From Pilasporangium apinafurcum (taxonomy: Eukaryota; Oomycota; Peronosporomycetes; Pythiales; Pythiaceae): a stretch of 64,000 nt of DNA. Below the pieces are notes generated by a model, which worked only from the letters and a program-made list of their open reading frames with translations, ran no database searches and had not been told where the DNA came from. Below are positions 6,931-58,245 of the stretch, piece by piece. The position numbers and the translations under genes are program-made. How positions within the stretch are numbered: position 1 is the stretch's first letter; every line of letters begins with the position of its first letter. The stretch is taken from the NCBI GenBank assembly GCA_001600495.1, contig BCKE01000054.1, positions 66,028 through 130,027 of the forward strand. Reading direction: 5' to 3'.

Positions 6931-7242
6931 TCTTTGCCTTCCTTTCGCACCGATAATACCGCGTCACGCTTTCTGGACAATCACTTTGATTTTCCACGCA
7001 CCCGATCTCCTCGGGCATGTACTATCATCGCTTTGCATCCGTTCTTGAAAAGAAGAGAGCTCATCGCGGAGAGTTCGAAACAAGTTTCTGCTTTGATTGA
7101 TAGAGATTGCTTCGCTTCAAACAACACATCAAAGTGTATCGTACACGTAGGAGAAATGGAGGATAGAGGCTGAGCCATTTAGTGAAGCCATCTTAGAAAT
7201 CCTTTGCTGAATAGATTGTCACATGCTAGAAAAGTGGGAACC

Positions 7243-32262: not shown

Positions 32263-33814
32263 GTTGTACCGAAAAGTAACTACTTGCAGATTCACAGCGT
32301 GTCATGTTGGCTTCGAGCAGGGCTTGTGCATGTCGACGGGTTACAACACCAGAACTTGGACAGCTCGTGTTTGGAGATTCAAGCAACGAGTTCCCGACAG
32401 ATACATTTGATCGCTAGCTAACAGCTCATCTACCGTTAGTGCAACATTCCAGATGATATAGCACTTGCCTCGAGCAACGTGATCCAGTTCAACAATGGCA
32501 TCAGAGATGGGGCTCCCGCACGTTCAGCCTACACTATGCTCTTGAAGGCTGATTTTGCGATTATATGATCGTTTAGCACCACCTACACGTCATCAACGGG
32601 CCCCTTGAGCTCCTGGTTCTTGATTAACAATCATAAAGTGGCGTTTGTACTCGCAATCAGTCACGGTCCACGTCGACGCACAATCCTTGCAACATTGAGC
32701 TTAGCTCTCCAGCCGATTTCATCGGTGATGAGGATTTTGACAGTGCAATTCTGTACACATTTAATCATGACACTCGCTGGTTGCTCGAGCAATCCCATCG
32801 TTTCCCCCCACGCCAACCTGGCACACTAGTACGGCAGACGTTCGTCACTACTGGTTTCGTTGGATGTGTCGATGATACAGGCGTGTTTTCTCGGTTGCAG
32901 CGATACACCGTACAATGACTTGAATGAAAGTGACCTTCCCAGCAGCAGCATCGAATTTTCTTTGTGGTCGGATCGCATGAGCAGATTTAGCAGAATGCTG
33001 GCAGTATGTTTCACCGCGTGACCGACACGCATGGTCAAGCCCTAAATTTCTCCAGTCTTGTTTTTCATTAACGGAGATACGATATAGTAGAAATGAGATG
33101 GAGTATAAACATGTCTACCGCAGCCCGAGCATCTCTTGCTATATCAATGGGGATTCTTACAAGCTGCATGACTGCTGCATCGTCCAGATCGTCGACCAAC
33201 TCAAATGCGATTGTCACGAGTTTTGCAGCAATATTAATCAAGCTCGCAGTGTGCTTTGTCATTGTTACCTGCAATGCACTTGTTCGTGTATAATACTTGC
33301 ACGTACTCTCTTTAGACAGCGCTGTGTTTGATGTGACGAGCTCCATCCTCGATGTACTGCTAGTTGCAGCGCTGTCCATTGCTCAATCTTCAATTTGGGG
33401 ATGAGAGATACTTTTCATTGAAGCATTGTGATGCTTCATCATCGTTAACGGATCATTTCCATGCTCTTGAGAACGTCCAGTACTTTTGATTTATGTTTGG
33501 CAAGTATTACGTGATAAAAGTTAATGTAGAGTAGACTGGTTTGTGCAGTAAACACAAGGAGCGTGGCTGAGAGCATTTAGAATAGACGGCCATCCTAGAT
33601 TGAGAGCATCTAGTCTCATTCACGCGTTGGTGAGTTCCTACAAGCAGTCATCTTTTGTTCTTCATGAGACCAAACTCCTGCTTAGTTTCTGTCCTCCATT
33701 TCTCCTATCGGTAGGATACACTTTGATGTGTTTTTGGAGCAAAGCAATCCCTATCGGTAGAAGCAGAAACTTATTTCCAATTCTTCACAATGACCTCTTT
33801 TCAGCGCCATTCTT
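32263..33814. other. Gene-poor region with a decayed remnant
   Basis: No intact gene. Minus-strand coding-like text between about 32660 and 33380 is listed separately. Confidence 0.5.
32660..33380 (-). pseudogene. Degenerate coding remnant, unknown family
   Basis: Minus-strand translation gives coherent but interrupted peptides: a segment with KESTCKYYTRTSALQ near 33300, LLNLLMRSDHKENSMLLLG near 32980, and VMIKCVQNCTVKILITDEIG followed by WRAKLNVARIVRRRGP near 32770-32670. The last two lie in one frame separated by a stop. The text reads like the end of a large oomycete protein family, but I cannot name it with confidence. Confidence 0.4.
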
Positions 33815-34135
33815 CTTTTCAAGAACGGATGCGAAATGGTGATGTCGAACATGCATCACAAAGTCTTCAAGTGGGTGTCGGACAACTACCATGAACTCCT
33901 TTTTCCATCCTTGGGACTTCAGAGCTGACGTCCAAGCAAAAAAGGATCTCAAGTAGGACTTCAAGATCAATACTCACATGGTCTCACTACAAGTTCAAGA
34001 CGATCGGGAGGATGCGTGATCGAGTGTGAAGAACAATATGCAATAAAGACTTGTTTTCAGAGTCCAGGTGTCGGAGATGCCTGCTCCGCGGTTGCCTGGT
34101 CCTGCTGGTCGTCGGATCCAAAGAAAAAACAGGAG
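33815..34135 (+). pseudogene. TnpB-like (Fanzor2/IS607-type) relic
   Basis: Plus-strand pieces in order: MHHKVFKWVSDNYHELLFPS (33856 onward), LTWSHYKFK (about 33973), and after a frame change EQYAIKTCFQSPGVGD (34031 onward). The pattern of HKV-hydrophobic-LLFPS, then WSHYKFK, then TC-x2-Cys-like zinc ribbon start is that of TnpB-like proteins of IS607-type elements and eukaryotic Fanzor2. Several stops and frame changes break it. The 3' block is shared with relics at 6801-6930 and 54747-54990. Confidence 0.5.
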
Positions 34136-43687: not shown

Positions 43688-45550
43688 TCAGCGTCGACCG
43701 GTGTGGAATTTGTAAAGAATAAAGAAAAAGATCGCTTGCAAAACAAGAGCATATCCTGCAAGTATAGCCATATTCGCTGGTAGATCCACATCTTCAATAC
43801 CCAAACGAGCGAGAATGGCATTAGCGGAAGCTGAATTTTCGTGGTGGAAGTGTCCGTACATGAACGACCGGAATGAGTACGTGTGGAAGGCAATGTAGTA
43901 CGCCCAGATCCAATAATCTGGAATTGTCTCCTTTGGTACCATGAAGCCTTCACACAACATAAACATCCCATAGATACCCGCGCCAAGTGCAATGCCAATG
44001 ATATAATGGGGTACAGCAGATCCAATCACGTGCATAAGCGATTCAGCGACCACCAACGACAGGAATAGGTTGAGTAAGAAATACCCAAACGAGTTCAGTC
44101 CGGTCAAGTACACCACCAGGATCGAAGACATGAGCGCAATCAAAAAGATACCGGGGATCGCTGCAATGAAATTGGCAACAACATAACTCATCACATTTAG
44201 TGAACTGTTGGCACGTTCGCGTAGGAACACGGAGCGTTGCTCGATGAAGAATGGTAATACCGCCACCGACATGAACACCAAGAAGGCTTGCACATAGAAA
44301 AGCATGGGCACCAAGTCTTCATCCGAGATATCATCGTTTGTTGATAGGTACATCGTGCCAACCATGAAGGAGAGCATAAAGTACATGAACAATCTCACCC
44401 AGTAGATCCCAGGATTCCGAATATTATTGATCGAATTTCGGTACATCAAGACACTAAATTGGCGCCATGCAGACGGAGGTGGAACAGAGATGTCGCTCAC
44501 ATGTACAAGATCATCCCGGTCTGATTTGATCTTCTCCGCCACAACTGACGCAGTCGTGCTCTTTGCATATCCATCTACCAGTTTTGGGATGTCCGCATGA
44601 CCATCAAAGTCGTTGTTGACCAGACTGATGAAGTATTCAGCAGGATTCATATATAACGGACAGCGATGTCCTGCTGAAGCAAAATGATCGATGATGTTGA
44701 CACGTGGACCGAAGTAAATTGTTTCCCCTGCGCTGAGAAGCATGACATTGGTGAACATATCGTAGACGAGTGACGAAGGTTGGTGGATCGTACAGATCAC
44801 TGTCTTTCCCTCCTGACACATCTTGACGATGAATTGCATCACATTGTGGGTTGACGACGAATCCAGTCCGGACGTTGGCTCATCCAACAGTAGAATGGAT
44901 GGATTTGCCAAAAGTTCGATTGCAATGCTCAGTCGTCGTTTTTGCCCACCGGAGATGCCTTTGCGGAAGATATCACCGACGAGCGTGTCCTGACATGAGC
45001 GCAATCCCATTTCGTCAATAACATCTTCTACTCTCTGGTTGATCATCTCGTTCGTGATACTGTTAGGGAGACTGAGCTTGGCGGCCATACGAAGCGTCTC
45101 ACGAACCGTGAAGGAGCCCAACAGCGAGTCTTCTTGTGCCACATAGCTGGTTAGCGCACGGAAAGTCTTGGAGTTGCGTTGCTCACCATTCAGTTCGATC
45201 ACTCCTTCGATGTGTCCGGAGCCCATTCTATCCGCGAGAATATCGAGCAAAGTAGTCTTTCCCGATCCTGATGGTCCCATGATAGCGGTCAATTCACCCG
45301 GTCCAGATCGACCAGTGACGTTCTTGAGGATTTTCTTCTCGGAGGTTTTGCCATCGTTCATAGTGAGCGTCAGGTTCGACCAGCTTAGTGTGCAAAGACT
45401 CGTTGTGGTCGTGTTGGATGCTCTGATGCTGTCGGTTTTGGGGAACAAATACGTACCATTCTCAGCGGTCACTGAGAAATAACCACTCTCAAGGTCGTCG
45501 TTGGACGTGAACTTGCGCTCAAGTATTGGCATTGGGTGGGCTGTCGTCAT
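43688..45550 (-). CDS. Half-size ABCG transporter, copy 1
   Basis: 620 residues from an ATG, with the nucleotide-binding domain before the membrane domain as in the ABCG (White) subfamily. Seen: Walker A GPSGSGKTTLLDIL near residue 90, signature ISGGQKRRLSIAIELL near 198, Walker B ILLLDEPTSGLDS near 218, and H-loop ICTIHQPSS. About six membrane segments follow from residue 370 on. Half transporters must dimerise; substrates may be lipids, sterols or toxicants. The paralogue at 48090-49922 is closely similar along its whole length. A 13-bp minisatellite lies in the upstream region. Confidence 0.95.
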   Translation of the reverse strand: MTTAHPMPILERKFTSNDDLESGYFSVTAENGTYLFPKTDSIRASNTTTTSLCTLSWSNLTLTMNDGKTSEKKILKNVTGRSGPGELTAIMGPSGSGKTTLLDILADRMGSGHIEGVIELNGEQRNSKTFRALTSYVAQEDSLLGSFTVRETLRMAAKLSLPNSITNEMINQRVEDVIDEMGLRSCQDTLVGDIFRKGISGGQKRRLSIAIELLANPSILLLDEPTSGLDSSSTHNVMQFIVKMCQEGKTVICTIHQPSSLVYDMFTNVMLLSAGETIYFGPRVNIIDHFASAGHRCPLYMNPAEYFISLVNNDFDGHADIPKLVDGYAKSTTASVVAEKIKSDRDDLVHVSDISVPPPSAWRQFSVLMYRNSINNIRNPGIYWVRLFMYFMLSFMVGTMYLSTNDDISDEDLVPMLFYVQAFLVFMSVAVLPFFIEQRSVFLRERANSSLNVMSYVVANFIAAIPGIFLIALMSSILVVYLTGLNSFGYFLLNLFLSLVVAESLMHVIGSAVPHYIIGIALGAGIYGMFMLCEGFMVPKETIPDYWIWAYYIAFHTYSFRSFMYGHFHHENSASANAILARLGIEDVDLPANMAILAGYALVLQAIFFFILYKFHTGRR

Positions 45551-46188
45551 TGCTTTCAGACTGAATTTCCAATAATGTGGAGCGAGAATTTTGTTTATAT
45601 CTCATTCCTCCGTTGGGGTTGTCATTAGCTCCACCACCGAGGACGAAATTCTCATCGATTGCAGACCAGATCGGAGTTTGGTCAGGCATGGTGGTCAGGC
45701 ATGGTGGTCAGATGTGGTGGTCAGGCGTACGGTACAGATGCACCAGACGGGACAGTCAAATTTTATGTTTCCAAAACAAGGTTTTATAATAATTATTATA
45801 TTGTGTAAATAGTATTGGATTAACAATATTAGGTGATATTGATATTGAAATCACCTGGTTTTAGCATTTCAAATGAAAACATGTGGATTCGTCTTCTTTT
45901 TTTTCCTGCTAACTGGAATTGCTAAAAGGTCAGGCACCACGTTACAGGTTAGTGGGTTAACTTTAGCCACCAAGTCGTGCATTCAAAGGTGAGTGTCAGT
46001 CTGCACGAGATTCGAAAGCTATAGATTTCATTTTTTCACATACAATGTCTGTGGAGGACACGTTAACGATGATTACTTCTCGGTACTATTTGCTTCACCC
46101 AATGGCTTTCGCTCGCAGTTTAGGGAGCAGTAGAAGATAGACGGGACATTTGAGTGAGTACCAAAAAGGCGTGGGTTCTTACTTCAAA
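45551..46188. other. Intergenic with ABCG copy 1 promoter
   Basis: Contains the minisatellite at 45681-45726; no gene seen. Confidence 0.5.
45681..45726. repeat. 13-bp minisatellite, 3.5 units
   Basis: Three units of GTCAGGCATGGTG type (the third reads GTCAGATGTGGTG) plus a half unit, about 130 bp before the ABCG copy 1 start codon. Confidence 0.9.
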
Positions 46189-46563
46189 ATGCCGCGGACA
46201 ACGTCGCGTCAGTCAGTGTATCACGTAGCAACCACTCTATCCCCACCTACACCCATACATATACATACACACAATTCAAGCACCGCCTACTTATATCAAA
46301 TTCCTGAGTCTCATCGCTTAGTACCCACACTACTTCGTCAACCTTTGCTTATTTCATTGATCGCATATGAAATACCCTTCCAACAACATTTAGCAGATAT
46401 TCGACGGTTATCCACATTACCAATTCCACTACCTTCCCTTAATATCGAAAGCGTCTGGTATCGTATTTGTTACAGATCAAAGTCATGTGTCGATTTTGTT
46501 TGCGTTGCATTGGATGAGGAAGAACAGCTCGCACATGTCATGCATGGCATACCCAACAAATGA
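46189..46563 (+). CDS. Small hypothetical protein
   Basis: 124 residues from the ATG at 46189. The N-terminal third is Thr/Pro/His-rich. The rest (IPESHRLVPTLLRQPLLISL, SVWYRICYRSKSCVDFVCVAL, DEEEQLAHVMHGIP) has the composition of a folded protein. I recognise no family. It stands alone between ABCG copy 1 and the first HIG1 gene. It may be a chance frame. Confidence 0.35.
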   Translation: MPRTTSRQSVYHVATTLSPPTPIHIHTHNSSTAYLYQIPESHRLVPTLLRQPLLISLIAYEIPFQQHLADIRRLSTLPIPLPSLNIESVWYRICYRSKSCVDFVCVALDEEEQLAHVMHGIPNK

Positions 46564-46960
46564 ACCTGCCCAGGTGGGACAATGAAAAGGCTATATACTG
46601 ATATAACATCTATTTTGGCTTCATACATACTGGTAATTGTTAACATTACGGATATGAAAGCTGCAATCTGATTGTTTGGATGCTGAAGAGGAAATAAACA
46701 AGAGAAATATTTCGATTAATTCCTCGAAAAAGACTATATTTGCCATTTTCAATCCAACAAATAGGCATGCGACAGCACGGTTCCCTTGATCGTCCTACCT
46801 GCTTCACCCTCCAAGTGATGGAATTACATCCAGAGAACTATGCCCATGTGAAATCAAGTCTTTCAAGCTCTGCTTTGGACTCGGCATTCGTCCACATTTT
46901 TCAATTGGCAAGCAACTCAGCATCACCAAGCAACAAAAATCCAAGTTACTTTCAATCAAC
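46564..46960. other. HIG1 copy 1 upstream region
   Basis: No gene seen; it presumably holds the promoter of the HIG1-domain gene. Confidence 0.45.
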
Positions 46961-47548
46961 ATGGACAAGGCAATTAGCATGATGGAGTCCAGCGAGACCC
47001 GTGATGTGATCTCCATGCACGCGTGGCACAGTGGTCTTAAGTCTGGTGCCATTGCAGCCACGATTGTTGGTACCGGTGTGGTCACGGCTAACAAGTTCTC
47101 CAAGGCATTCCGCACACGTTTAGGCGTCAGTGGCAAAGTCGCACTTGTGGTGTCGTCTTTCCTTGCGACGTTCGTCGTTGAATCCGAGAAACGTGTGCTT
47201 GAAGGAGCACGGAACCCCGAGAAATACTTGAAAATGATGGATCCAAATTACACCGACCAAGCAGCCAACAAGCATGATGAGAAGCTCAGATGGTATCACC
47301 GTACGGCGAATTTCGTCTACGATCACCCGTATCGCACATTGGCTACTGCAGGCGTTCCGCTCGTTGGTGGGATTTTCGCCTACCAAAGCACTAACCACGC
47401 AATCCAGCGGTCTCAACAGATTATGCATACGCGTATCTACGGCCAAGGTGCTGTGGTGGTGCTGTTGTTGAGCTCGATGGCGTTCCATGATTACATGTCC
47501 AAGCGGGGTCGCTTTGGAGAAGAAGAAGACCACGAACTGAATGCATAG
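46961..47548 (+). CDS. HIG1-domain (Rcf1-like) protein, copy 1
   Basis: 195 residues from an ATG. An N-terminal membrane pair (KSGAIAATIVGTGVVTANKF, KVALVVSSFLATFVV) precedes a C-terminal HIG1 domain: a hairpin of two segments (TLATAGVPLVGGIFAYQS, VVVLLLSSMAFHDY) with the connecting QQIMHTRIYGQ. That loop fits the Q-x3-H/R-x-R-x3-Q motif of Rcf1-type HIG1 proteins, which sit in the inner mitochondrial membrane and help assemble respiratory complex IV and supercomplexes. At 195 residues it is longer than animal HIG1 proteins. It is the only copy on the plus strand; three more lie at 50.8-54.2 kb. Confidence 0.88.
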   Translation: MDKAISMMESSETRDVISMHAWHSGLKSGAIAATIVGTGVVTANKFSKAFRTRLGVSGKVALVVSSFLATFVVESEKRVLEGARNPEKYLKMMDPNYTDQAANKHDEKLRWYHRTANFVYDHPYRTLATAGVPLVGGIFAYQSTNHAIQRSQQIMHTRIYGQGAVVVLLLSSMAFHDYMSKRGRFGEEEDHELNA

Positions 47549-48089
47549 GCAAACATGATAGCGATCGCAGCTTTCTTTCATTTGGATATCTTTATTCTTC
47601 TCACAAACACAGACAAACAAAGAGCCTTGGGCTGTTGAAGCCGAGGTAACACTAGTTTTTAGCCATAGCATCACACAGCTTACCTCAAATAGAATGGGTT
47701 GACATTCATTTTGTGTGCACAAGTTGAAGAACTCAAAGTAAGAAAGCGCATGCAAAGACCAGCAGCCACGCCAAAGCACATATCTAGTTGATATCAGTGA
47801 AGCTACGCTGAGCGCGAGAACAGAAGAAAGAAAGCTAACTACCGCAGCATAGTGTGGAAGGAATGTCGCTCAGTTGCGGATGGAGCGTCCGATTTACAGA
47901 GATAAGGCGTCATTTTTACACTGCGTGAGACCTCACTTGTGCTTATTTTGTGTGTGCGAGTTGAGTATATATAATCTATATATTGTTAACGCATATGCAT
48001 TTTTTACGCTGATATTCGTCATCACAAATCTACCTTTCAGGAGTGCTCATTTGAAATACATGCCAGATTTAGAGTTGATCTGAGAGCAT
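47549..48089. other. Intergenic between convergent genes
   Basis: No gene seen. Confidence 0.5.
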
Positions 48090-49922
48090 TTAACGTTGAC
48101 CGGTGTGGAATTTGTACAAAACGACAAAGAAGATAAGCTGCAGTACAAGCGCATATCCCACGAGAATGATTGCATTCATGTCCATGTTCACGTCTTCCGC
48201 ATTCAATCGTTCCAAGACGGCTTTAGCAGACGCTGAGCCTTCGTAGTGGAAATGACCATAGACGAACGAACGGTATGAATATGTCTGGAAATCGAGATAG
48301 TATGCCCAGATCCAGTAATCCGGAATCGAATCTCGAGGAACCATGAACCCTTCACAGAGGATGAACATACCAAAGATACCGGCGCCAAGTGCAATGCCGA
48401 TAATGTAGTGCGGCGCCACCGCACTAATGACATGCATGAGTGATTCCGCGGTGATCAATGACAGCGAGAGGTTGAGCAAAAAATACCCAAACGAGTTGAG
48501 GCCGGCTAAATACACCACAAGAAGCGAGCAAATCAGTGCGATCATGAAAATACCCGGAATCGCAGCGAGGAGGTTGGCGATAACGTAGCTTCCCACATGC
48601 AGTGAACTGTTAGCACGCTCGCGAAGAAACACAACACGTTGATCAATAAAGAATGGGAGCACGGCCACTGACATGAAGATGAGAAAACTAGGTAGAAAGC
48701 ACAGCATCGGGACTAAATCTTCATCAGTGAGATCATCGTTTGTCGACAAGTACATGGTACCAACCATCACCGAGAGCGTGATGTACATGAACAATCGCAC
48801 CAAGTAAATACCAGGATTACGGATATTGTTAAGCGAGTTCCGATACATAAGCACCGAGAACTGACGCCACATCGACGGCGATAGAACAGAGAGATCATTC
48901 GTGTACAGTAAATTTCGGTGGTCTAACTCAATCTGAGCTACCACGTTTGTTGCTGCTGAACTCCTCACATAGGCATGGACAAGTCTGGAAATATCGACAT
49001 GTCCTTCAAAGTCAGTATTGACCAAGCTGATGAAGTACTCGGCTGGATTTGAGTATAATGGGCATTTGTACCCCAATGACGTGAAATGATTAAGAATATT
49101 TGCTCTTGGTCCAAAGTACACTGTTTCTCCACCACTCAGGATCATCACGTTTGTAAACATGTCGTATACCAATGACGATGGCTGGTGAATAGTGCAGATC
49201 ACAGTTTTACCTTCTTCGCAAAGTTTGGTAATACACTTCATAACATTGTAAGTTGCGGACGAATCCAACCCTGAAGTCGGCTCATCTATTAGTAAGATGG
49301 ATGGATTTGCCAAGAGTTCGATCGCGATACTCAGTCGCCGCTTTTGGCCACCGGAAATACCTTTACGGAAGATATCACCGACAATTGTATCTTGACACGA
49401 GCGCAATCCCATTTCATCAATGACCTCTTCGACTCGTTGGATGATGATCTCCTTTGTGACACTCTTGAGGAGACTGAGTTGAGCTGCCATCCTTAGCGTC
49501 TCCAGAACAGTAAACGATCCCAGAAGTGAGTCTTCCTGTGCAACGTAGCTCGTCAACCCACGAAATGTCTTAGAGTCACGCTTCTCACCGTTCAGTTCTA
49601 TGATTCCTTCAATTTGGTAAGAACTTACGCGGTCTGCAAGGATGTCGAGCAATGTAGTCTTCCCCGAGCCAGACGGTCCCATAATCGCTGTCAATTCTCC
49701 AGGAGCAGACCGCCCAGTGATGTTGTTTAGAATGACTTTCTTTCCATCATCGACTGTGACAGTTACGTTTGACCAACTCAGCGCACATAGACTCTTAATG
49801 CTTCCATTAGTCGCAGTAGCAGAAGTTTGGGGGGTGCTAATGACCAAGTAGCCACGCTCGAAGTCGTCAATTGAGGAGAATGCTTGCTCAAGTCTAGGCG
49901 TGAAAGCGACGGGAGTTGACAT
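48090..49922 (-). CDS. Half-size ABCG transporter, copy 2
   Basis: 610 residues from the ATG at 49922; the open frame extends four codons to a TTG. It has the same layout as copy 1: Walker A GPSGSGKTTLLDIL, signature ISGGQKRRLSIAIELL, Walker B ILLIDEPTSGLDS, H-loop ICTIHQPSS, then six membrane segments. Differences concentrate in the N-terminal 50 residues and the linker before the membrane domain (around residues 325-365), which may affect substrate or regulation. It arose by duplication of copy 1 or the reverse. Confidence 0.95.
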   Translation of the reverse strand: MSTPVAFTPRLEQAFSSIDDFERGYLVISTPQTSATATNGSIKSLCALSWSNVTVTVDDGKKVILNNITGRSAPGELTAIMGPSGSGKTTLLDILADRVSSYQIEGIIELNGEKRDSKTFRGLTSYVAQEDSLLGSFTVLETLRMAAQLSLLKSVTKEIIIQRVEEVIDEMGLRSCQDTIVGDIFRKGISGGQKRRLSIAIELLANPSILLIDEPTSGLDSSATYNVMKCITKLCEEGKTVICTIHQPSSLVYDMFTNVMILSGGETVYFGPRANILNHFTSLGYKCPLYSNPAEYFISLVNTDFEGHVDISRLVHAYVRSSAATNVVAQIELDHRNLLYTNDLSVLSPSMWRQFSVLMYRNSLNNIRNPGIYLVRLFMYITLSVMVGTMYLSTNDDLTDEDLVPMLCFLPSFLIFMSVAVLPFFIDQRVVFLRERANSSLHVGSYVIANLLAAIPGIFMIALICSLLVVYLAGLNSFGYFLLNLSLSLITAESLMHVISAVAPHYIIGIALGAGIFGMFILCEGFMVPRDSIPDYWIWAYYLDFQTYSYRSFVYGHFHYEGSASAKAVLERLNAEDVNMDMNAIILVGYALVLQLIFFVVLYKFHTGQR

Positions 49923-50840
49923 TACCAAGACCAAGCAGATTGGAAAATGAGCTTTTTACGCTGCAGACAACAAGCACGTCCTATCTAGACCCATCCATTT
50001 GTATCCATCGGCGGTGAAACTCATTATTCTGCTTCTACTTCTCTCGACAATCACGTTACGTCCGGTAAATGTTTCATGCAATAGATCCGGCAAATTGGGT
50101 TGCTCATGATGACTTCGCACGGGTATCTATCATGTCAAATCATGTTTACTAGACCGAGTTTGGATAACGATATGATATCCATCCGATATCTAATGTGTTG
50201 AAACGACCGTAGTAACTGAGCTGCATTATTTGTGATATATATTTGCTAGATAGGATATGGATGGATAATAAAATCGCGTGATGACTTCGAAGAAATCATC
50301 TTTTTTGTTTAAGAAAATCACAATCTAAATAGGTTTCGAGCATTCCTTGTAGTTAGATGAGAGCAATTCCTTGGGAGATATGCAGTAGTCTCGGCATTAT
50401 ACGTATCACAAGTGTTTCTACAAAAGCCATAGCTTCATTGTCCCTCTGAGGCAAGACGTCCGCACAGCTCACAGTTACATTGTTTAAAAAACCATGGCCA
50501 TGAAAATTTTGTGGTGAGTCGTTGATCCTTTCGCATCATATGCTAAACTAACTGTGTAAATTTAGACGTAGTCTCATCCGAGTCCAAAGATTAAGAAGCC
50601 GAATGAGTCTATGTTTGTGAGAAAGTTCCAACCCATCGGGTCTACCGTTCACGAAAACATGGTTGCTCAAGATGAGTTTCAATTGCTTTGCTTTGAGTTT
50701 GTCTAAGATGGTCTACTAGTGTCTCACAACGAAGAGATCGTACTATAAACGTAGCCATAACACTCGACCCTTTTTGACGAAAAGTGCCTTGGCGACAAGA
50801 AAGAGGGTTTCTTTCACTCTCATATCCTCCTGAATAAAGC
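49923..50840. other. Intergenic, no gene seen
   Basis: Holds the ABCG copy 2 promoter. A 90-codon minus frame at 50642-50914 overlaps the HIG1 copy 2 gene and is not supported. Confidence 0.5.
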
Positions 50841-51437
50841 TCATGCGCGCTTTTCGGCTTCTTCATCGTCATCGTCCTCGACAACAAACCGTCCACGCTT
50901 GGCCATATAATCATGGAACGCCATCGAGCTCAACAACAGCACCACCACAGCACCTTGACCGTAAATACGCGTGTGCATGATCTGCTGCGATCGCTGGATC
51001 GCGTGATTCGAGCTCTGATACGCAAAGATGCCACCCACCAGCGGCACACCGACCATCGCTAGTGTTTTATATGGATGGTCATACAGGAAATTTGCCGAGC
51101 GTTCGTACCATTTCAGCTTGTGGCTGTGCTGCTTTTGTTTTTGTACGTATCGATCGTCCATTTCCACGATATACTGCTCTGGATTCCGGGCTCCAACGAC
51201 GAGCCGCTTCTCGGAAACAAGCGTGAATGTGCCCAGAAATGACGATACCACAAGCGCCCATTTGCCACTGATCCCCAATCGACGACGGAAGGCGGGCCAA
51301 TACGTATTAGCAGTCAAGACGCCCGTACCAGCTACCATTGCAGCAACAGCGCCGGCCTTCAGACCGCTCGTGTAGGCATGCATGGCAATGACATCGCGCG
51401 TTTCCTTGGACTCCATCATACTGATTGCCTTGTCCAT
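50841..51437 (-). CDS. HIG1-domain (Rcf1-like) protein, copy 2
   Basis: 198 residues from an ATG, with the same layout as copy 1, including QQIMHTRIYGQ. The end is acidic (VVEDDDDEE). The C-terminal half is nearly identical in protein and DNA to copy 3, while the N-terminal halves differ more (IVEMDDRYV against LAEMDHRYV, GAVAAMVAG against GAVAAAVVG). Confidence 0.88.
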   Translation of the reverse strand: MDKAISMMESKETRDVIAMHAYTSGLKAGAVAAMVAGTGVLTANTYWPAFRRRLGISGKWALVVSSFLGTFTLVSEKRLVVGARNPEQYIVEMDDRYVQKQKQHSHKLKWYERSANFLYDHPYKTLAMVGVPLVGGIFAYQSSNHAIQRSQQIMHTRIYGQGAVVVLLLSSMAFHDYMAKRGRFVVEDDDDEEAEKRA

Positions 51438-51995
51438 GGTTGATGACTATATTGTCTGTACACTTGCTCTTCTTCTTCTTCTTGGTGTTGTTGATGGAGC
51501 TTGAGAACCACAGTGCCAATTGAAGACTGGAGATAGAACTGGAGTGATTCCCCTTCTTCAGATTGTTTATCTATCATCATCATCATCCAACGTTCTTGGT
51601 CACATAGACAGAAGCAGGCAATGACTTGTCTAAAGTGGAAGTTCGAACGTATAGTACCGTTTATCACCATTTAAGTGCTGCCCTTGCGTATCATGTGTTG
51701 ATGAACCGAGTGGATCGATTCGACTAATGAATGAATATGAACAGTGCTAAGTATGGAAAACAAGCAATTTGTCTTGATCAAGCGCACGATTAGTGATAGC
51801 ATTGGAACGAGAGGTGAACATCTCGTAGCTATGGATACCCTGCAAGTAACATGAGTAATCAAGAAATCATCTAATCATGCTCATTAATTGCGTGTTTCTT
51901 TTTTCATTGTAGCCTATCCAACAGATAATCAAATATGCAGTATACATGGAAGTAACATGAACCTTTTCAGAACCTACTTCTTCTTCGTATCTTGT
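51438..51995. other. Intergenic, no gene seen
   Basis: Spacer between HIG1 copies 2 and 3 with short CTT and CAT repeats. Confidence 0.5.
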
Positions 51996-52625
51996 CTAAT
52001 GCGTGGCCTTCACAAACGCGTGGCTTGTTCGTTCATCTTCTTCGGGTTCTTCATCGTCATCATCCTCGACAACAAACCGTCCACGCTTGGCCATATAATC
52101 ATGGAACGCCATGGACGCCAACAGTAACGTCACTACCGCAGCTTGGCCGTAAATACGCGTGTGCATGATCTGCTGCGATCGCTGGATCGCGTGATTCGAG
52201 CTCTGATACGCAAAAATGCCACCCACCAGCGGCACACCAACTGTTGCCAGCGTTTTATATGGATGGTCATACAGGAAATTTGCCGAACGTTCGTACCATT
52301 TCAGCTTGTGGCTGTGCTGCTTTTGTTTTTGCACATAACGGTGGTCCATTTCTGCCAAGTATCTCTCCGGATCCCGAGCGCCGATGACCAGCCGCTTCTC
52401 GGAAACAATCGTGAATGAGCCAAGGAATGCCGATACGACCAGCGCGGTCTTGCCACTGATCCCCAATCGACGACGAAAGGCTCCCCAGTAGGTGTTGGCG
52501 GTCACGACACCCGTTCCAACGACAGCGGCTGCGACAGCACCAGCTTTTAAGCCGCTTGTGTAGGCATTCATGGCAATGACATCACGCGCCTCTTTCGATT
52601 CGATCATGTGGATGGTTTTTTCCAT
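51996..52625 (-). CDS. HIG1-domain (Rcf1-like) protein, copy 3
   Basis: 209 residues from the ATG at 52625; the frame is open further upstream, but the other copies align from this Met. It carries the HIG1 hairpin with QQIMHTRIYGQ and a longer C-terminal tail (EEPEEDERTSHAFVKATH) than copy 2. Tandem with copy 2 and in the same orientation. Confidence 0.87.
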   Translation of the reverse strand: MEKTIHMIESKEARDVIAMNAYTSGLKAGAVAAAVVGTGVVTANTYWGAFRRRLGISGKTALVVSAFLGSFTIVSEKRLVIGARDPERYLAEMDHRYVQKQKQHSHKLKWYERSANFLYDHPYKTLATVGVPLVGGIFAYQSSNHAIQRSQQIMHTRIYGQAAVVTLLLASMAFHDYMAKRGRFVVEDDDDEEPEEDERTSHAFVKATH

Positions 52626-53618
52626 GGTGGAAGTTGGTGGTGTTGTATAGGCTACTTGGGTCACTTGGTGCTTCAAGGTCAAAATCAAATATGAGCTCAT
52701 GCATGAAGCGCCTTCACTACTTCTCACACAAAATATATTCATGGGCATATTAACGGTGGTGAAAGATTGCGTGACAGCTGATCACAGCGGATTATCGCAG
52801 ACTTCATCCTTCTGCTCCTGAAGCTAAAGGAATTATTGAGACGGTCCTTCCTTTCATGCGACGTCTGTAAAGGAAAGTGTTGCTTCCTACAGTAGGAAGA
52901 ATATTGACGAGTGCTATGTGCTCTTTTCAATCATTGCAAAGGCAGTTGCTGGTAGACATTCATTCGAAATTGACCAAGTGGCATTTGCATCTTCTGTGAC
53001 ATCGTAGTCGTCTTCCATCTGTCTCATCGCGCTTTTGGTTGGGTTGATGGGTACCAATGAGGTTTTTAATGTTTTACTGTAGAAAATAAAAAAACCTTAG
53101 GATAAATATCTATACCAAAATAGAATCCATACCCAGATCAGTCAGTCCATTTCGCGTATTTTTTTATACACTATTTCATGATAAATATTGTCGCATATCA
53201 TAAAATAATATCACAAAACTGCTTTGGCTATCGTGTGCATACATGGATGATGGACTCGTAGTTCTAATTGTGTTGCTGTGCGAACACTCACAAATAGAAA
53301 AGTTTTATTGCCTCATTGCCTATACTTCAGCTTCGTCCACGAGTGTTCTCATCCAATTGAATGCAGCAAACCAAACGAGATTTTGCGGTAAACGTGCCTT
53401 CAGCCTGGATGGACAAATGAATTGATGCTGTATGTCCATTACCAAGCTAATCTGACATATGGAGGTCAAGCTCATGATACTTATACATATGCTTGTATGA
53501 TTGAATGTCTAGACAACAAAAAACATTAATCGTTTTCATTACCCATCTTACCAAAGCAATTCTACTCGAGGGAATGAGAGGTAATTGTGATCGTCTCTAC
53601 TGCGAAATATACTAATTT
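52626..53618. other. Intergenic, no gene seen
   Basis: About 1 kb with AT-rich parts near 53060-53220. Confidence 0.5.
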
Positions 53619-54233
53619 TTATAGCTCTTCAAGGGTTTGATGTGATTGAACTTCTCCCTCAGTGTTATGCTTAATCTCCACAAACCGGCCGCGCTTGGAC
53701 ATATAGTCGTGAAAGCCCATAGACGCTAATAGCAGTACCACCACTGCGCCTTGACCATAGATACGCGTGTGCATGATCTGCTGTGATCGCTGGATCGCAT
53801 GGTTCGTACTCTGGTAGGCAAAGATACCGCCAACCAGAGGCACACCAGCCACTGCCAGCGTTTTGTATGGATGATCATAGATATAATTTGCCAGTTGCTT
53901 GTACCAAGTTAGTCGGTGGGATTCTTCAATCTTGGCTTGAACATAATTGGGGTCCATGGATGCCAAGTATTTCTCCGGGTTGCGAGCACCAGCTACTAGC
54001 CGCTTCTCTGAAACGACCGTGAACGTAGCTAGGAAAGACGACACCACAAGCGCGCATTTGCCACTCACACCGAGTCGCGTGCGGAACGTTTTCGAGTACG
54101 TGTTAGCTGAGTACACACCCGCGCCAGCGACCATGGCAGCGACTGTGCCAGCCTTCATACCACTAGTCCATGCGTGCATGGAGATGATGTCGCGCGCCTC
54201 TGTGGCGTTGATTATGTCAATGGATTTGTGCAT
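53619..54233 (-). CDS. HIG1-domain (Rcf1-like) protein, copy 4
   Basis: 204 residues from an ATG. Same domain layout and QQIMHTRIYGQ motif. The N-terminal half is the most diverged of the minus-strand copies (DIINATEARDIISMHAWTSG) and is closer to copy 1 in places (FRTRLGVSGKCALVVSSFLATF), so it may be the older minus-strand member. The tail lacks the acidic run of copies 2 and 3. Confidence 0.88.
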   Translation of the reverse strand: MHKSIDIINATEARDIISMHAWTSGMKAGTVAAMVAGAGVYSANTYSKTFRTRLGVSGKCALVVSSFLATFTVVSEKRLVAGARNPEKYLASMDPNYVQAKIEESHRLTWYKQLANYIYDHPYKTLAVAGVPLVGGIFAYQSTNHAIQRSQQIMHTRIYGQGAVVVLLLASMGFHDYMSKRGRFVEIKHNTEGEVQSHQTLEEL

Positions 54234-55763: not shown

Positions 55764-55764
55764 T

Positions 55765-55828
55765 TAACCTTTATTCCCCACGTGTTCTCTACCACGCGTG
55801 GTAGAGAACACGTGGAGAATAAAGGTTA
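55765..55828. repeat. Left 64-bp near-perfect palindrome
   Basis: Arms of 32 bp (TAACCTTTATTCCCCACGTG then TTCTCTACCACG) meet at ACGCGT, centre 55796/55797. One mismatch only: the right arm has GAGAAT where GGGAAT is expected. It begins 45 bp after the Fanzor stop codon, read on the minus strand. Confidence 0.93.
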
Positions 55829-55873
55829 CACTCATCCGTTTCCAGAATTATAGCAGTGAGGTCGTTTATCACC

Positions 55874-57741
55874 TCAGTTTTTGATTTCCAGTACCAATTC
55901 ATTCTCTTTCCTTGTGAACGACTCGAGTCTTCTCTTTTTCTTCACTTGGTCGATGAATAGTCTCAAAATGTTTATTGTGGCGTTGATATCACGGTCCCAC
56001 AATGTGCGATGGCATTCACTATTTTTGCAGTGTTGCATACCATAAAGACCGTCACTGACAACTTTTCCGTCAAGAACGAACCCCTTCATCTTCTTGTGAC
56101 AAGCACAACACGACATCTGGAACCAACTTTCTTCCGTAAGGTCATTGTGGGAACAGCAATGTTGCCTCTAGCTGAGCTTGTGAAACTTGCATCTCCATAC
56201 GCGATAACGGTCCGTTTATCCCCACCTGTAAGGTTCTTGACTACCTTCTCGTACGCTTGTTGTCGACTGATGTAGGTCAACCATCGTAGCCTCTTGATCC
56301 TCCTTGATGAATACACGTCAAGAAGATGATCCAAATACACGAGACAAAATCTGACTCGTTTCAAATAGGAGACAAGGCTCGCAACTTTTGCCGAAGGAAC
56401 GTTTTCATTGAAGGTTTTGATGTCAGGCTCAGCATCAATCCACTCTTTGGTCAACTTTGTTCGTCTGTGGTAGCCGCACTCTCTGTAGAAACGACACTTA
56501 GACCAGTGGATGACTTCATGTTTGACGTTCTCTCCTTTCGGCTTTTGCAAAGTAGCCATGCTTTCATCTTTGTAGACAACAGCAGTGAAGATCTTCTTTC
56601 TCTCTGAGTTCAAACCGATGATCCGGTCTTCAAGAGAAAATGTCTCTTTTTTCTCTCTCGTGGGAAGCTTTGGACGGGAGATTGCCACACCAACTGACAT
56701 ACCATCGGTCGAGATGAAGTGCACAAACTCCTTTCGCTGGCCTTTGGTCACAAGACCTATATTGAAGTACGTGCGCTATAACTCAGCTTTGTCGACGTAA
56801 AGCTCAACAGGGTCACCCAAAGCCTTAGCAAGATGCTCCAAGACGGTGGTATTGATCTTGATGAAAATGGGTTTGAAGTGTTTCTGTGGAAGCAGAGACC
56901 AGACTCGGCAATCCTTCATTCCATCATCCACGTGAGCTTGTATGTCTATCAGCATTGTGTCGAGAAAGGGTATGTGATATTCCGGTGATTTGTTCAAGTC
57001 GAGTGACAGCGGTCCGATCTCGTTTCTCACTCTATCCGATAATTTCTGCATCCAAACAATCTCCTCAGTAGGGATGGGATACTTCTTGAACCTGGAGTAT
57101 GCGGAGATCAGGTTGGATAAGCTATCCTGAGTTTCGGTGCTTGCATAGACCAGCGGTGAAACAGTACTCTTGATTATCTTGCCTTGATGCTTTTCAAAAT
57201 ACTCACTGTTGTGAAGACGTAGCTGCAAGCGCATCCACTTACACAGCCAGGAGTAGAACGCCAATCGGTTGCTGACTTGAAAATTCTGCCTTGCGTGCTG
57301 TGTGATCATAACCAACATCTGACTCATATAAGATTTCTTCTCTGTCGGTTCATAAACTGAAGGGTGCTGGGCCATGTAAATATTTCGACTAGTTTCCAAT
57401 TCAGGATTGGCGACCTCTCTGTTGCTGGCCAAATTGACTATTGCAGATGAGCATCGATTGAAGAAGTTATTGTCCAATGGAGAAAGTTCTTCGCCAACTT
57501 CCAATAATCGCAGAACATGGACACATGCCAGCATAGATGCCTCACATGCTATTCTTGAACAAAGTCGCACAGCCTCATCAATCTTTTTTGCTATTCTTTT
57601 GTCTTTGCAAAACTTTCCCCACCCAATATTCACAGTGGTGTATACGCTTTGCTTTTGTCGAGCTTTTCGCTCCGCATAATTCGGGCGGGCTCTCCGCTTT
57701 TTAGCGATGTTCTCTTCAATACCATTGCTCGTTGATGCCAT
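55874..57741 (-). pseudogene. Fanzor (eukaryotic TnpB-like) nuclease pseudogene
   Basis: About 620 codons from the ATG at 57741. Order: basic start, helical recognition part (57741-56779), then STDGMSVGVAISRP, the RuvC-I region IIGLNSERKKIFTAV, AYGDASFTSSARG (RuvC-II region), a CCAC and CKNSEC zinc ribbon, and WDRDINATINI (RuvC-III). Fanzors are RNA-guided DNA endonucleases related to bacterial TnpB. Three lesions: an in-frame TAG at 56776-56778, the RuvC-I Asp replaced by Asn (codon 56608-56610), and a frame change near 56096-56118 where the DEFRTS block seen in the 26.3-kb fragment is missing. It is therefore very unlikely to cut DNA. Confidence 0.85.
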
Positions 57742-58022
57742 TTTATTACAACGTTCAAAAACAAGGACGTCTCGTACTTGGTTTGATTTTTTGATTATGC
57801 TGTTTCTCAAAGCTGCAGTTCTTTCTATCTTGGCAAATGGTGTTGAAGTAACACTCAATGGATGGGTGCTAGGACGTGAGGTGGTAAATACTTCAATTCA
57901 ATACGCTTCGCTATTGAGAAGCCGGAAACGATTCATTCAAGAGATGCCACCGAAATGAGAAACTCTCAAACTCCTGAGAAGTGCCTTGTGGTATATACTT
58001 AATGTTTCTAACTCCATATATC

Positions 58023-58040
58023 TTAACCTTTTTTCCTCAC
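58023..58040 (+). repeat. Internal terminus-like repeat
   Basis: TTAACCTTTTTTCCTCAC matches the element end TTAACCTTTATTCCCCAC at 16 of 18 positions, about 160 bp inside the right palindrome. Confidence 0.5.
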
Positions 58041-58185
58041 CCAAGGTGTATAATTTCATTTTTCTGGAAACGCGATTGATCGTCAACATGGCCTTTCAAG
58101 ATGATTGCACACGCAGCAACAGGCACCAAGGAGTCACTCCATCCAATGAATCCTAAAGTCTACTCTCAAGGCAATCTTATTTTTA

Positions 58186-58244
58186 ATCTTTATTCCCCAC
58201 ATCATTTGTACAACGCGTTGTACAAGTGGGGAATAAAGGTTAAG
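58186..58244. repeat. Right palindrome of the Fanzor element
   Basis: Arms TAATCTTTATTCCCCAC...TTGTACAACG and its complement meet at ACGCGT (centre 58217/58218). The left arm carries 5 extra bases (ATCAT) after CCCCAC. The outer 17 bases equal those of the left palindrome, but the inner arm sequence differs (TTGTACAA against TTCTCTACC). Confidence 0.9.
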
Positions 58245-58245
58245 C

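Follow-up and report, generated by a model that had tools for sequence, protein, structure and literature searches.

The window analysed here is a 64,000-nucleotide stretch of Pilasporangium apinafurcum contig BCKE01000054.1 (G000:C54:66028-130027 of a 36.5-Mb, 136-contig assembly). Positions 55764-58243 hold a unit of 2480 bp, including the TTAA at both edges, with a palindrome at each end and a minus-strand gene in between, broken into three frames (57858-56776, 56751-56086 and 56116-55874; Table 1). Fanzors are CRISPR-related RNA-guided cutters and, judged by its sequence, the gene is a Fanzor1. The palindromes at 55765-55828 and 58183-58243 have about 18 terminal bases in common. The arms of the left one are 32 nt long and 97% complementary, with no spacer; those of the 5' palindrome (5' and 3' are used in the sense of the gene) differ by 5 bp. 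Taken together, the outer edges make up an inverted repeat of 25 nt (96%) that reaches three bases into the flanking DNA on each side. The strong fold of 55764-55990 is mostly that of the palindrome itself. Apart from the Fanzor pieces, the open reading frame list has no frame longer than 93 amino acids between the ends (small frames were not profile-searched). The original prediction, that palindromes sharing their terminal bases enclose the gene and that there is no transposase gene inside, thus holds within these limits.

The unit is one copy of a large repeat family with deletion derivatives, and the palindromes are real element ends. Genome-wide, the 18-base terminal motif (up to two mismatches) occurs 288 and 287 times, versus 0 and 1 for its reversed control, so the palindromes are not there by chance. 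Searching with the left palindrome gave 80 matches, which correspond to about 40 places counted once per strand; of 136 candidates, 40 were scored. Counts for the gene pieces are lower bounds: at least 118 genome matches for the N-terminal piece (113 of 354 candidates scored) and at least 153 for the middle piece (150 of 322). For the N-terminal piece, the 30 best loci are L030-L059, with the window copy as L030; 28 of them have a located 5' end, 20 a located 3' end and 19 both. The 19 two-ended loci are 2390-2526 bp long and their flanks are unlike each other. Identity to the column majority is 94.5-96.8% and the median pairwise identity 0.910; a third, internal copy of the terminal inverted repeat (TIR) motif was found (up to three edits) in 26 of the 28 copies with a located 5' end. 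That the palindromes are the ends follows from the flanks varying between copies, the TTAA or TTAN edges and the single TTAA in three empty sites. At 24 of 26 palindrome places inspected (of about 40), element sequence lies on the inner side; L069 has 16 bp only and L005 none. The palindromes are therefore multi-copy and tied to the gene, rather than single-copy sequence unrelated to it, and the original prediction is not refuted on this point.

Solo palindromes flanked by TTAA, without an element, lie at L005 1500-1565 and L073 1209-1274. They may be 65-bp mobile units or remnants; the former idea was set aside, as only these two places were found. Near the first, on the minus strand of L005 at 62-271, is a C-terminal fragment of a different Fanzor-like gene (WDRDVNASLNI).

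Table 1. Features of the Fanzor1 element, in window coordinates.
Feature	Position	Strand	Basis or remark
TTAA, left edge (3' end in gene sense)	55764..55767		Presumed target duplication, one of its two copies; the empty paralogues of a sister insertion have a single TTAA in three cases
3' terminal palindrome, 32-nt arms, centre CACGCGTG, holds the 3' TIR	55765..55828	-	27 distinct aligned copies, 94.7% of cells paired
3' untranslated stretch, Fanzor frame to palindrome; possible part of a guide RNA, by analogy	55829..55873	-	No excess conservation
C-terminal frame: zinc ribbon (CCAC..CKNSEC) and RuvC-III (WDRDINAT)	55874..56116	-	PF07282, E 0.024
37-column gap site (coordinates approximate)	56110..56125	-	DEFRTS segment with RuvC-II Glu gone, frame shifted
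Middle frame: WED segment with TDG motif (STDGMSV), RuvC-I region, AYGDASF block	56086..56751	-	69% identity to P0002 over 219 residues
RuvC-I motif, here IIGLNSERK, catalytic Asp lost	56596..56622	-	Copy comparison
In-frame TAG breaking the Fanzor frame	56776..56778	-	Sequence and frame list
N-terminal Fanzor frame from first ATG; stop-free frame starts at 57858	56776..57741	-	39% identity to P0001 over 83%
TIR motif CTTAACCTTTTTTCCTCAC, third copy, inside the element some 200 bp from the 5' end	58022..58040	+	Repeat analysis
5' terminal palindrome, centre ACGCGT, holds the 5' TIR	58183..58243	-	Repeat analysis and copy alignment
TTAA, right edge (5' end in gene sense)	58240..58243		Sequence

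On their own, the window pieces match PF07282 (expect value, E, 0.024), guided_TnpB (E 0.0099) and SpuFz1 (E 0.17), too weakly to serve as stand-alone proof, and a relative was required. Two related proteins were found, P0001 and P0002. The latter, which is metagenomic, shares 69% identity with the middle piece and 52% with the C-terminal one, and lies above the PF07282 cut-off (E 1.4e-6). Compared with PDB sequences (sequence only, no tree), its residues 21-369 match SpuFz1 with E 2.4e-10, followed by GtFz1 (0.012) and PpFz1 (0.038); no TnpB was matched at E ≤ 1. P0002 contains the Fanzor1 motif D-X(125-275)-[TS][TS]-X-X-C4-X(5-50)-RD described in PMC3627910, with a spacing of 174, and the window pieces align to these stretches save for a lost Asp and a gap. 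It also has DPG at RuvC-I and TDG, and a Glu stands seven positions ahead of the first Cys of the zinc ribbon; PMC10711439 describes DPG at RuvC-I and a Glu near the zinc ribbon as a Fanzor fingerprint. The window copy has lost this fingerprint, reading LNSERK at RuvC-I and having the Glu within its gap, while the TDG motif (STDGMSV) is present in the window frame as in P0002. Because P0002 passes PF07282, matches SpuFz1 and not TnpB, and carries DPG, TDG, the Glu and the long motif, we assign the gene to Fanzor1 by way of this relative. The profile search thereby supports the Fanzor identity proposed at the outset. The proposed domain order stands as far as the RuvC-I region, AYGDASF block, zinc ribbon and WDRDINAT are concerned, in a gene that is broken by the TAG, the loss of the Asp and the gap. 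The phage collection searched for near relatives gave no match; four stretches of viral contigs fit a pattern, with no relatives among them.

As read from its sequence, the window copy is dead, because it has an in-frame TAG, the RuvC-I Asp is replaced and the gap takes away the RuvC-II Glu. The original prediction did not anticipate a dead copy, nor its membership of a very large family with deletion derivatives. Across the family, 28 of 30 copies are readable at RuvC-I; 24 of these retain the Asp, and 17 have an exact DPG. The 37-column gap, which is not a multiple of three, is shared by two of 30 aligned copies (the window copy and L033; L039 is unreadable there), and the DEFRTS motif is present in P0002 and in the deletion derivatives. 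Among changes common to at least three copies, 116 of 336 are synonymous (34.5%, versus 29.9% expected; p 0.06); for private changes the figure is 28.9%.

The deletion derivatives share the ends of the longer copies and fall into two recurrent classes with constant breakpoints. Class A, in which element positions 1-1127 are joined to about 2040-2480 at a common junction, was found at 13 distinct loci, some with more gaps. By our own count, 51 of the 118 listed N-terminal matches end at residues 250-256, where class A breaks off. At least two, on C11 and C28, do not belong to class A, since a middle-piece match adjoins. The junction is in frame, connecting the N-terminal 250 residues or so with AYGNASF, DEFRTS, the zinc ribbon and RuvC-III, without RuvC-I. 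Open frames of 354 codons (L023, L074, L075 and L076) or 387 codons (L081) are present at 5 of the 13 loci, a share that is biased, as 8 of the 13 were chosen for their long listed frames. Two class A proteins score slightly below the PF07282 cut-off (E 8.8e-6 and 1.3e-5). We do not claim purifying selection on the class A frame, the pairwise ratios of nonsynonymous to synonymous changes (0.44-0.68) being near a hand-derived neutral value of about 0.63 for the transition bias in question; among changes that copies share, 50 of 145 are synonymous (p 0.24), which likewise demonstrates no selection. In class B, positions 1-402 are fused to 2174-2480, leaving about 0.64-0.70 kb (L020, L021 and L067), and similar forms are seen at L008, L068 and L070.

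The tetramers at the element edges are mostly TTAA and less often TTAN. The L036 insertion sits in a dispersed repeat, and its joined flanks have 40 listed matches (of 230 candidates), of which 38 cross the junction and the remaining two are the L036 locus itself. Seven uninserted copies were aligned: L063, L064 and L065 have one TTAA where L036 has one per side, and the other four (L066, one beside L034 and two in the window) have a base changed at the spot. A second insertion, L032, is at the same TTAA of the same repeat. Guided homing of these two to one repeat site was rejected, since the elements, with an identity of 0.901, are not close relatives. The repeat (window 7052-7169 and 33695-33820; L063-L066; 230 candidates) has thus taken at least two independent Fanzor insertions at its TTTTTTAAGCG spot. 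Joined flanks of 8 of 19 prepared loci gave 20 further matches, none across the junction (16 are the loci themselves and four are one-sided, to the flanks of L047). Matching edges other than TTAA are TTAT/TTAT in L035 and TTAC/TTAC in L058 and L043, which speak for TTAN.

With a probability of roughly 75%, the window unit is a copy, now decayed, from a family of non-autonomous cut-and-paste DNA transposons, the sole gene of which is a Fanzor1 and the 61-66-bp palindromic termini of which each consist of a TIR and its mirror image. Its structure suggests that a transposase supplied in trans would bind the palindromic ends and insert the element at T-TTAA sites; movement in trans is the most likely mode because no transposase frame is seen inside. 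By analogy with SpuFz1, GtFz1 and SfAV, intact copies may have made a guide RNA from the right end that would extend across the 3' palindrome and the TTAA and on into the 3' flank. The guide RNA of the SfAV Fanzor1 extends about 15 nt past the target-site duplication, with TIR and duplication in its scaffold (PMC10711439). After excision, the Fanzor could cut the emptied site beside a target-adjacent motif (TAM) of the TTAA type, and repair from a filled copy would restore the element. The window copy, which keeps only its ends, would be unable to cut, and could be mobilised in trans provided that these ends function. PMC10432273 treats the role of a Fanzor for its transposon as an open question.

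The flanks of the insertions are oriented. Of 44 insertions, 37 have a T directly ahead of the 5' TTAA: 24 of the 29 long copies and 13 of the 15 derivatives. By comparison, the window background for a T preceding TTAA is 29.5% (p 9e-14). The complementary A follows the 3' TTAA in 12 of 32 (p 0.33 versus background; Fisher test of the two sides, 3.6e-5), after four rows (L034, L037, L038 and L042), in which the 3' end had been mis-set to the inner 5' palindrome, were dropped by hand; the doubtful derivative row L078 was kept. With these four rows left in, the count is 16 of 36 (Fisher, 3e-4). The sole empty site is T-rich, and there the T fits either as target or as element. Spu-1, the element carrying SpuFz1, has CA conserved upstream of its 5' inverted repeat at Fanzor and Fanzor-deleted ('ghost') loci, which together with TA makes up the SpuFz1 TAM, CATA (PMC10432273); TA is also its putative target duplication (PMC3627910). 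For GtFz1, the TAM is given as TTAA(N) (PMC10432273; TTAA also in PMC11423790). Because the one-sided T resembles the way in which the Spu-1 flank displays the SpuFz1 TAM, we predict TTTAA as the TAM of the Fanzor of this family.

A target preference of the transposase accounts for the oriented T equally well, and we give even odds to the T being just that: the transposase would favour TTTAAR in one orientation, making the base uninformative on the Fanzor. Derivatives without much of the Fanzor keep the same T, and L036 and L032 share one TTAA of one repeat without being close relatives, as a sequence-driven hotspot would give. A palindromic target, however, should yield no orientation, and the same one-sided flank at Spu-1 and its ghost loci is part of a TAM (PMC10432273). 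It is rather unlikely that insertions beside TTTAA persisted in one orientation because the right-end RNA could cut the empty allele there. In that case the insertion pattern would bear the imprint of the target motif of the Fanzor itself, and RNA-guided retention of a eukaryotic transposon would be naturally recorded in the family, Fanzor-deleted members included. The in-frame derivatives lacking RuvC-I would be nuclease-dead mini-Fanzors competing with the active form.

As for the carrier, the element might be a non-autonomous piggyBac derivative, with a transposase dimer binding the palindromes and pasting the element into TTAA, a proposal that we hold tentatively and at less than an even chance. 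The TTAA edges and the CC/GG tips fit piggyBac, and the genome has three piggyBac-type DDE regions, one with an open frame of 546 amino acids. However, none of these three loci has matching ends in the fetched stretches, that is, no DDE_Tnp_1_7 gene was found with the same ends. piggyBac is nearly strict for TTAA, whereas L035, L058 and L043 have TTAT or TTAC at both edges. Known piggyBac ends contain 19-bp palindromes bound by paired cysteine-rich domains (PMC11707139), in line with the proposal. One of the three regions, L060 (G000:C5:658288-659460), has the 546-codon open frame without recognisable TTAA-anchored ends in the 4.2 kb fetched, and is possibly domesticated. For a Tc1/mariner carrier, with a TA duplication and a DDE_3 transposase, DDE_3 has 59 matches in the genome, with none seen inside the element (the ends of the DDE_3 loci were not compared).

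A similarly tentative proposal is that the carrier is not piggyBac but the TTAN transposon type, without superfamily, reported for insect-virus Fanzor1 genes. Five such families have 4-bp TTAN duplications, 13-bp TIRs and no superfamily (PMC3627910), and the TTAT/TTAT and TTAC/TTAC edges of the present family would fit. Where PMC3627910 describes these families it does not call them palindromic, however, and the likeness is one of description and not of TIR letters.

The palindromes might also be kept because the guide RNA requires a hairpin, which we consider improbable. Among 33 aligned 3' palindromes (27 distinct), 94.7% of cells are paired, versus 93.1 ± 0.4% in shuffled alignments (0 of 500 as high) and 39-49% in slid controls. 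The arms covary beyond the shuffles (0.123 versus 0.095; 0 of 500), and one pair occurs as C-G, G-C, U-A and A-U. Looser measures were unremarkable: pairs changed on both sides number 6 versus 3.7 (32 of 500 shuffles) and further pair types 27 versus 25.2 (66 of 500). However, G-U pairs are not in excess over broken pairs, and the 5' end, outside the expected guide RNA, is palindromic too, with long and short arm states: a 5-bp segment of the 5' palindrome, examined in 23 matched copies, is in the inner arm only in 20, in both arms in two and in the outer arm only in one (L051 is also outer-only). Copying from arm to arm, or a protein site with two-fold symmetry, is the more likely explanation for the covariation. 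An Rfam search gave seven matches, all to microRNA hairpin families and far below gathering scores. Separately, L034, L050 and L052 have a shortened 3' palindrome, with the inner arm joined to GTTAA, as if a hairpin had been deleted between short AGGT repeats.

Helitron2 or an IS200/605-like element, with the hairpins as ends of a rolling-circle or single-strand transposon, is very improbable. Helitron2 elements do have a hairpin at either end, and some are known to carry Fanzor1 (PMC3627910), but their short TIRs are asymmetric and they insert after TTTT, without duplication in intact cases (PMC3627910). Here there are a symmetric outer TIR, TTAA or TTAN at both edges and a single TTAA in empty sites (RepHel was not searched for).

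Several observations weigh against the transposon and retention scheme set out above. No unbroken full frame exists among the 30 long copies, whose longest frames have 549 and 534 codons, and any selection acting on the Fanzor frame is weak. TTAA is missing from at least one edge in 12 of 23 full-length rows (11 of 19 once the mis-set rows are dropped) and 7 of 13 derivative rows, the right edge reading GG|CTAA in seven of these, and TTAN, TAN or TA would each fit as the duplication in part. For the flank signature, the asymmetry is weakened among the long copies when no rows are dropped, A following the 3' TTAA in 12 of 23 (p 0.02), and the window copy is itself an exception, with C before its 5' TTAA. 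For the guide RNA, the 3' palindrome has no RNA-strand signature (35 wobble-making cells versus 34 pair-breaking transitions), and the 3' region varies no less than the coding region (1.41-1.58 versus 1.25 changes per column). Finally, around the three places with a piggyBac-type PF13843 match, no matching motif or TTAA-anchored TIR was found in 3.2-4.2 kb.

The genome seems to be loaded with other Fanzor/TnpB-type genes. PF07282 has 852 candidates genome-wide, and all 150 scored exceed the cut-off (e.g. C12:23465, C4:380337, C21:403492 and C135:16707). Those places that were compared by eye are not copies of the palindrome-ended family, and some have frames of 600-700 codons. At L083 (G000:C135:13800-18600), two TnpB-like genes flank a transposase of the DDE_3 type (frames 1957-2761). 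The closest PDB sequence to a 638-residue TnpB-like protein of this locus is the TnpB-like protein L79, from a mimivirus; the 638-residue protein looks Fanzor2-like. Similar DDE_3/PF07282 neighbours are found on C7, C15 and C34. Elsewhere in the window, 43692-54233 contains direct and inverted paralogous stretches of 66-91% identity. The assembly has 50 elicitin matches, which support an oomycete-like host; elicitins are not known from outside the oomycetes.

Albugo laibachii is an oomycete with a small genome. Two Fanzor1 families listed for it (PMC3627910, Table 1) may include the present family, the comparison being by name only. The insect-virus elements HVav-1, SFav-1, PUgv-1, HAgv-1 and HAmn-1 likewise combine a Fanzor1, TIRs and TTAN duplications; compared by description, theirs differ in having 13-bp TIRs and residing in viruses. 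GtFz1 of Guillardia theta is a Fanzor1 with a TTAA-type TAM, but is reported without inverted repeats, and the TAM is only predicted here. piggyBac resembles the family in its TTAA target and palindromic transposase sites, although no matching transposase and ends were found among the three loci here.

There are precedents for TIR elements that have Fanzor1 as their sole gene, for TTAN duplications and for ghosts without the Fanzor. The literature searched (one library) contained no publication on the present family, and no precedent for a Fanzor element palindromic at both ends, an in-frame class lacking RuvC-I or the oriented T. Of the unusual arrangement originally predicted, a solo Fanzor between foldback ends, it is therefore the palindromic ends that are without precedent in this literature, the solo Fanzor1 between TIRs being known. 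The family gives an oomycete-type Fanzor1 element defined ends, and its high copy number, graded decay, Fanzor-deleted derivatives and oriented target signature make a retention model testable by sequence and a TAM screen.

The comparison with Spu-1 of Spizellomyces punctatus covers both differences and likenesses. Spu-1 has inverted repeats of 30-33 bp, a putative TA duplication, a CATA TAM and intact copies, whereas the present family has palindromic ends of 61-66 bp, TTAA or TTAN, and no unbroken full-length frame in 30 copies. Both have a Fanzor1 as sole gene, TIRs and no transposase inside, at similar sizes (about 2.1 kb for Spu-1 and 2.4-2.5 kb here). Both also have Fanzor-deleted derivatives that share the ends of the element (134 ghost loci in Spu-1) and conserved bases upstream of the 5' end.

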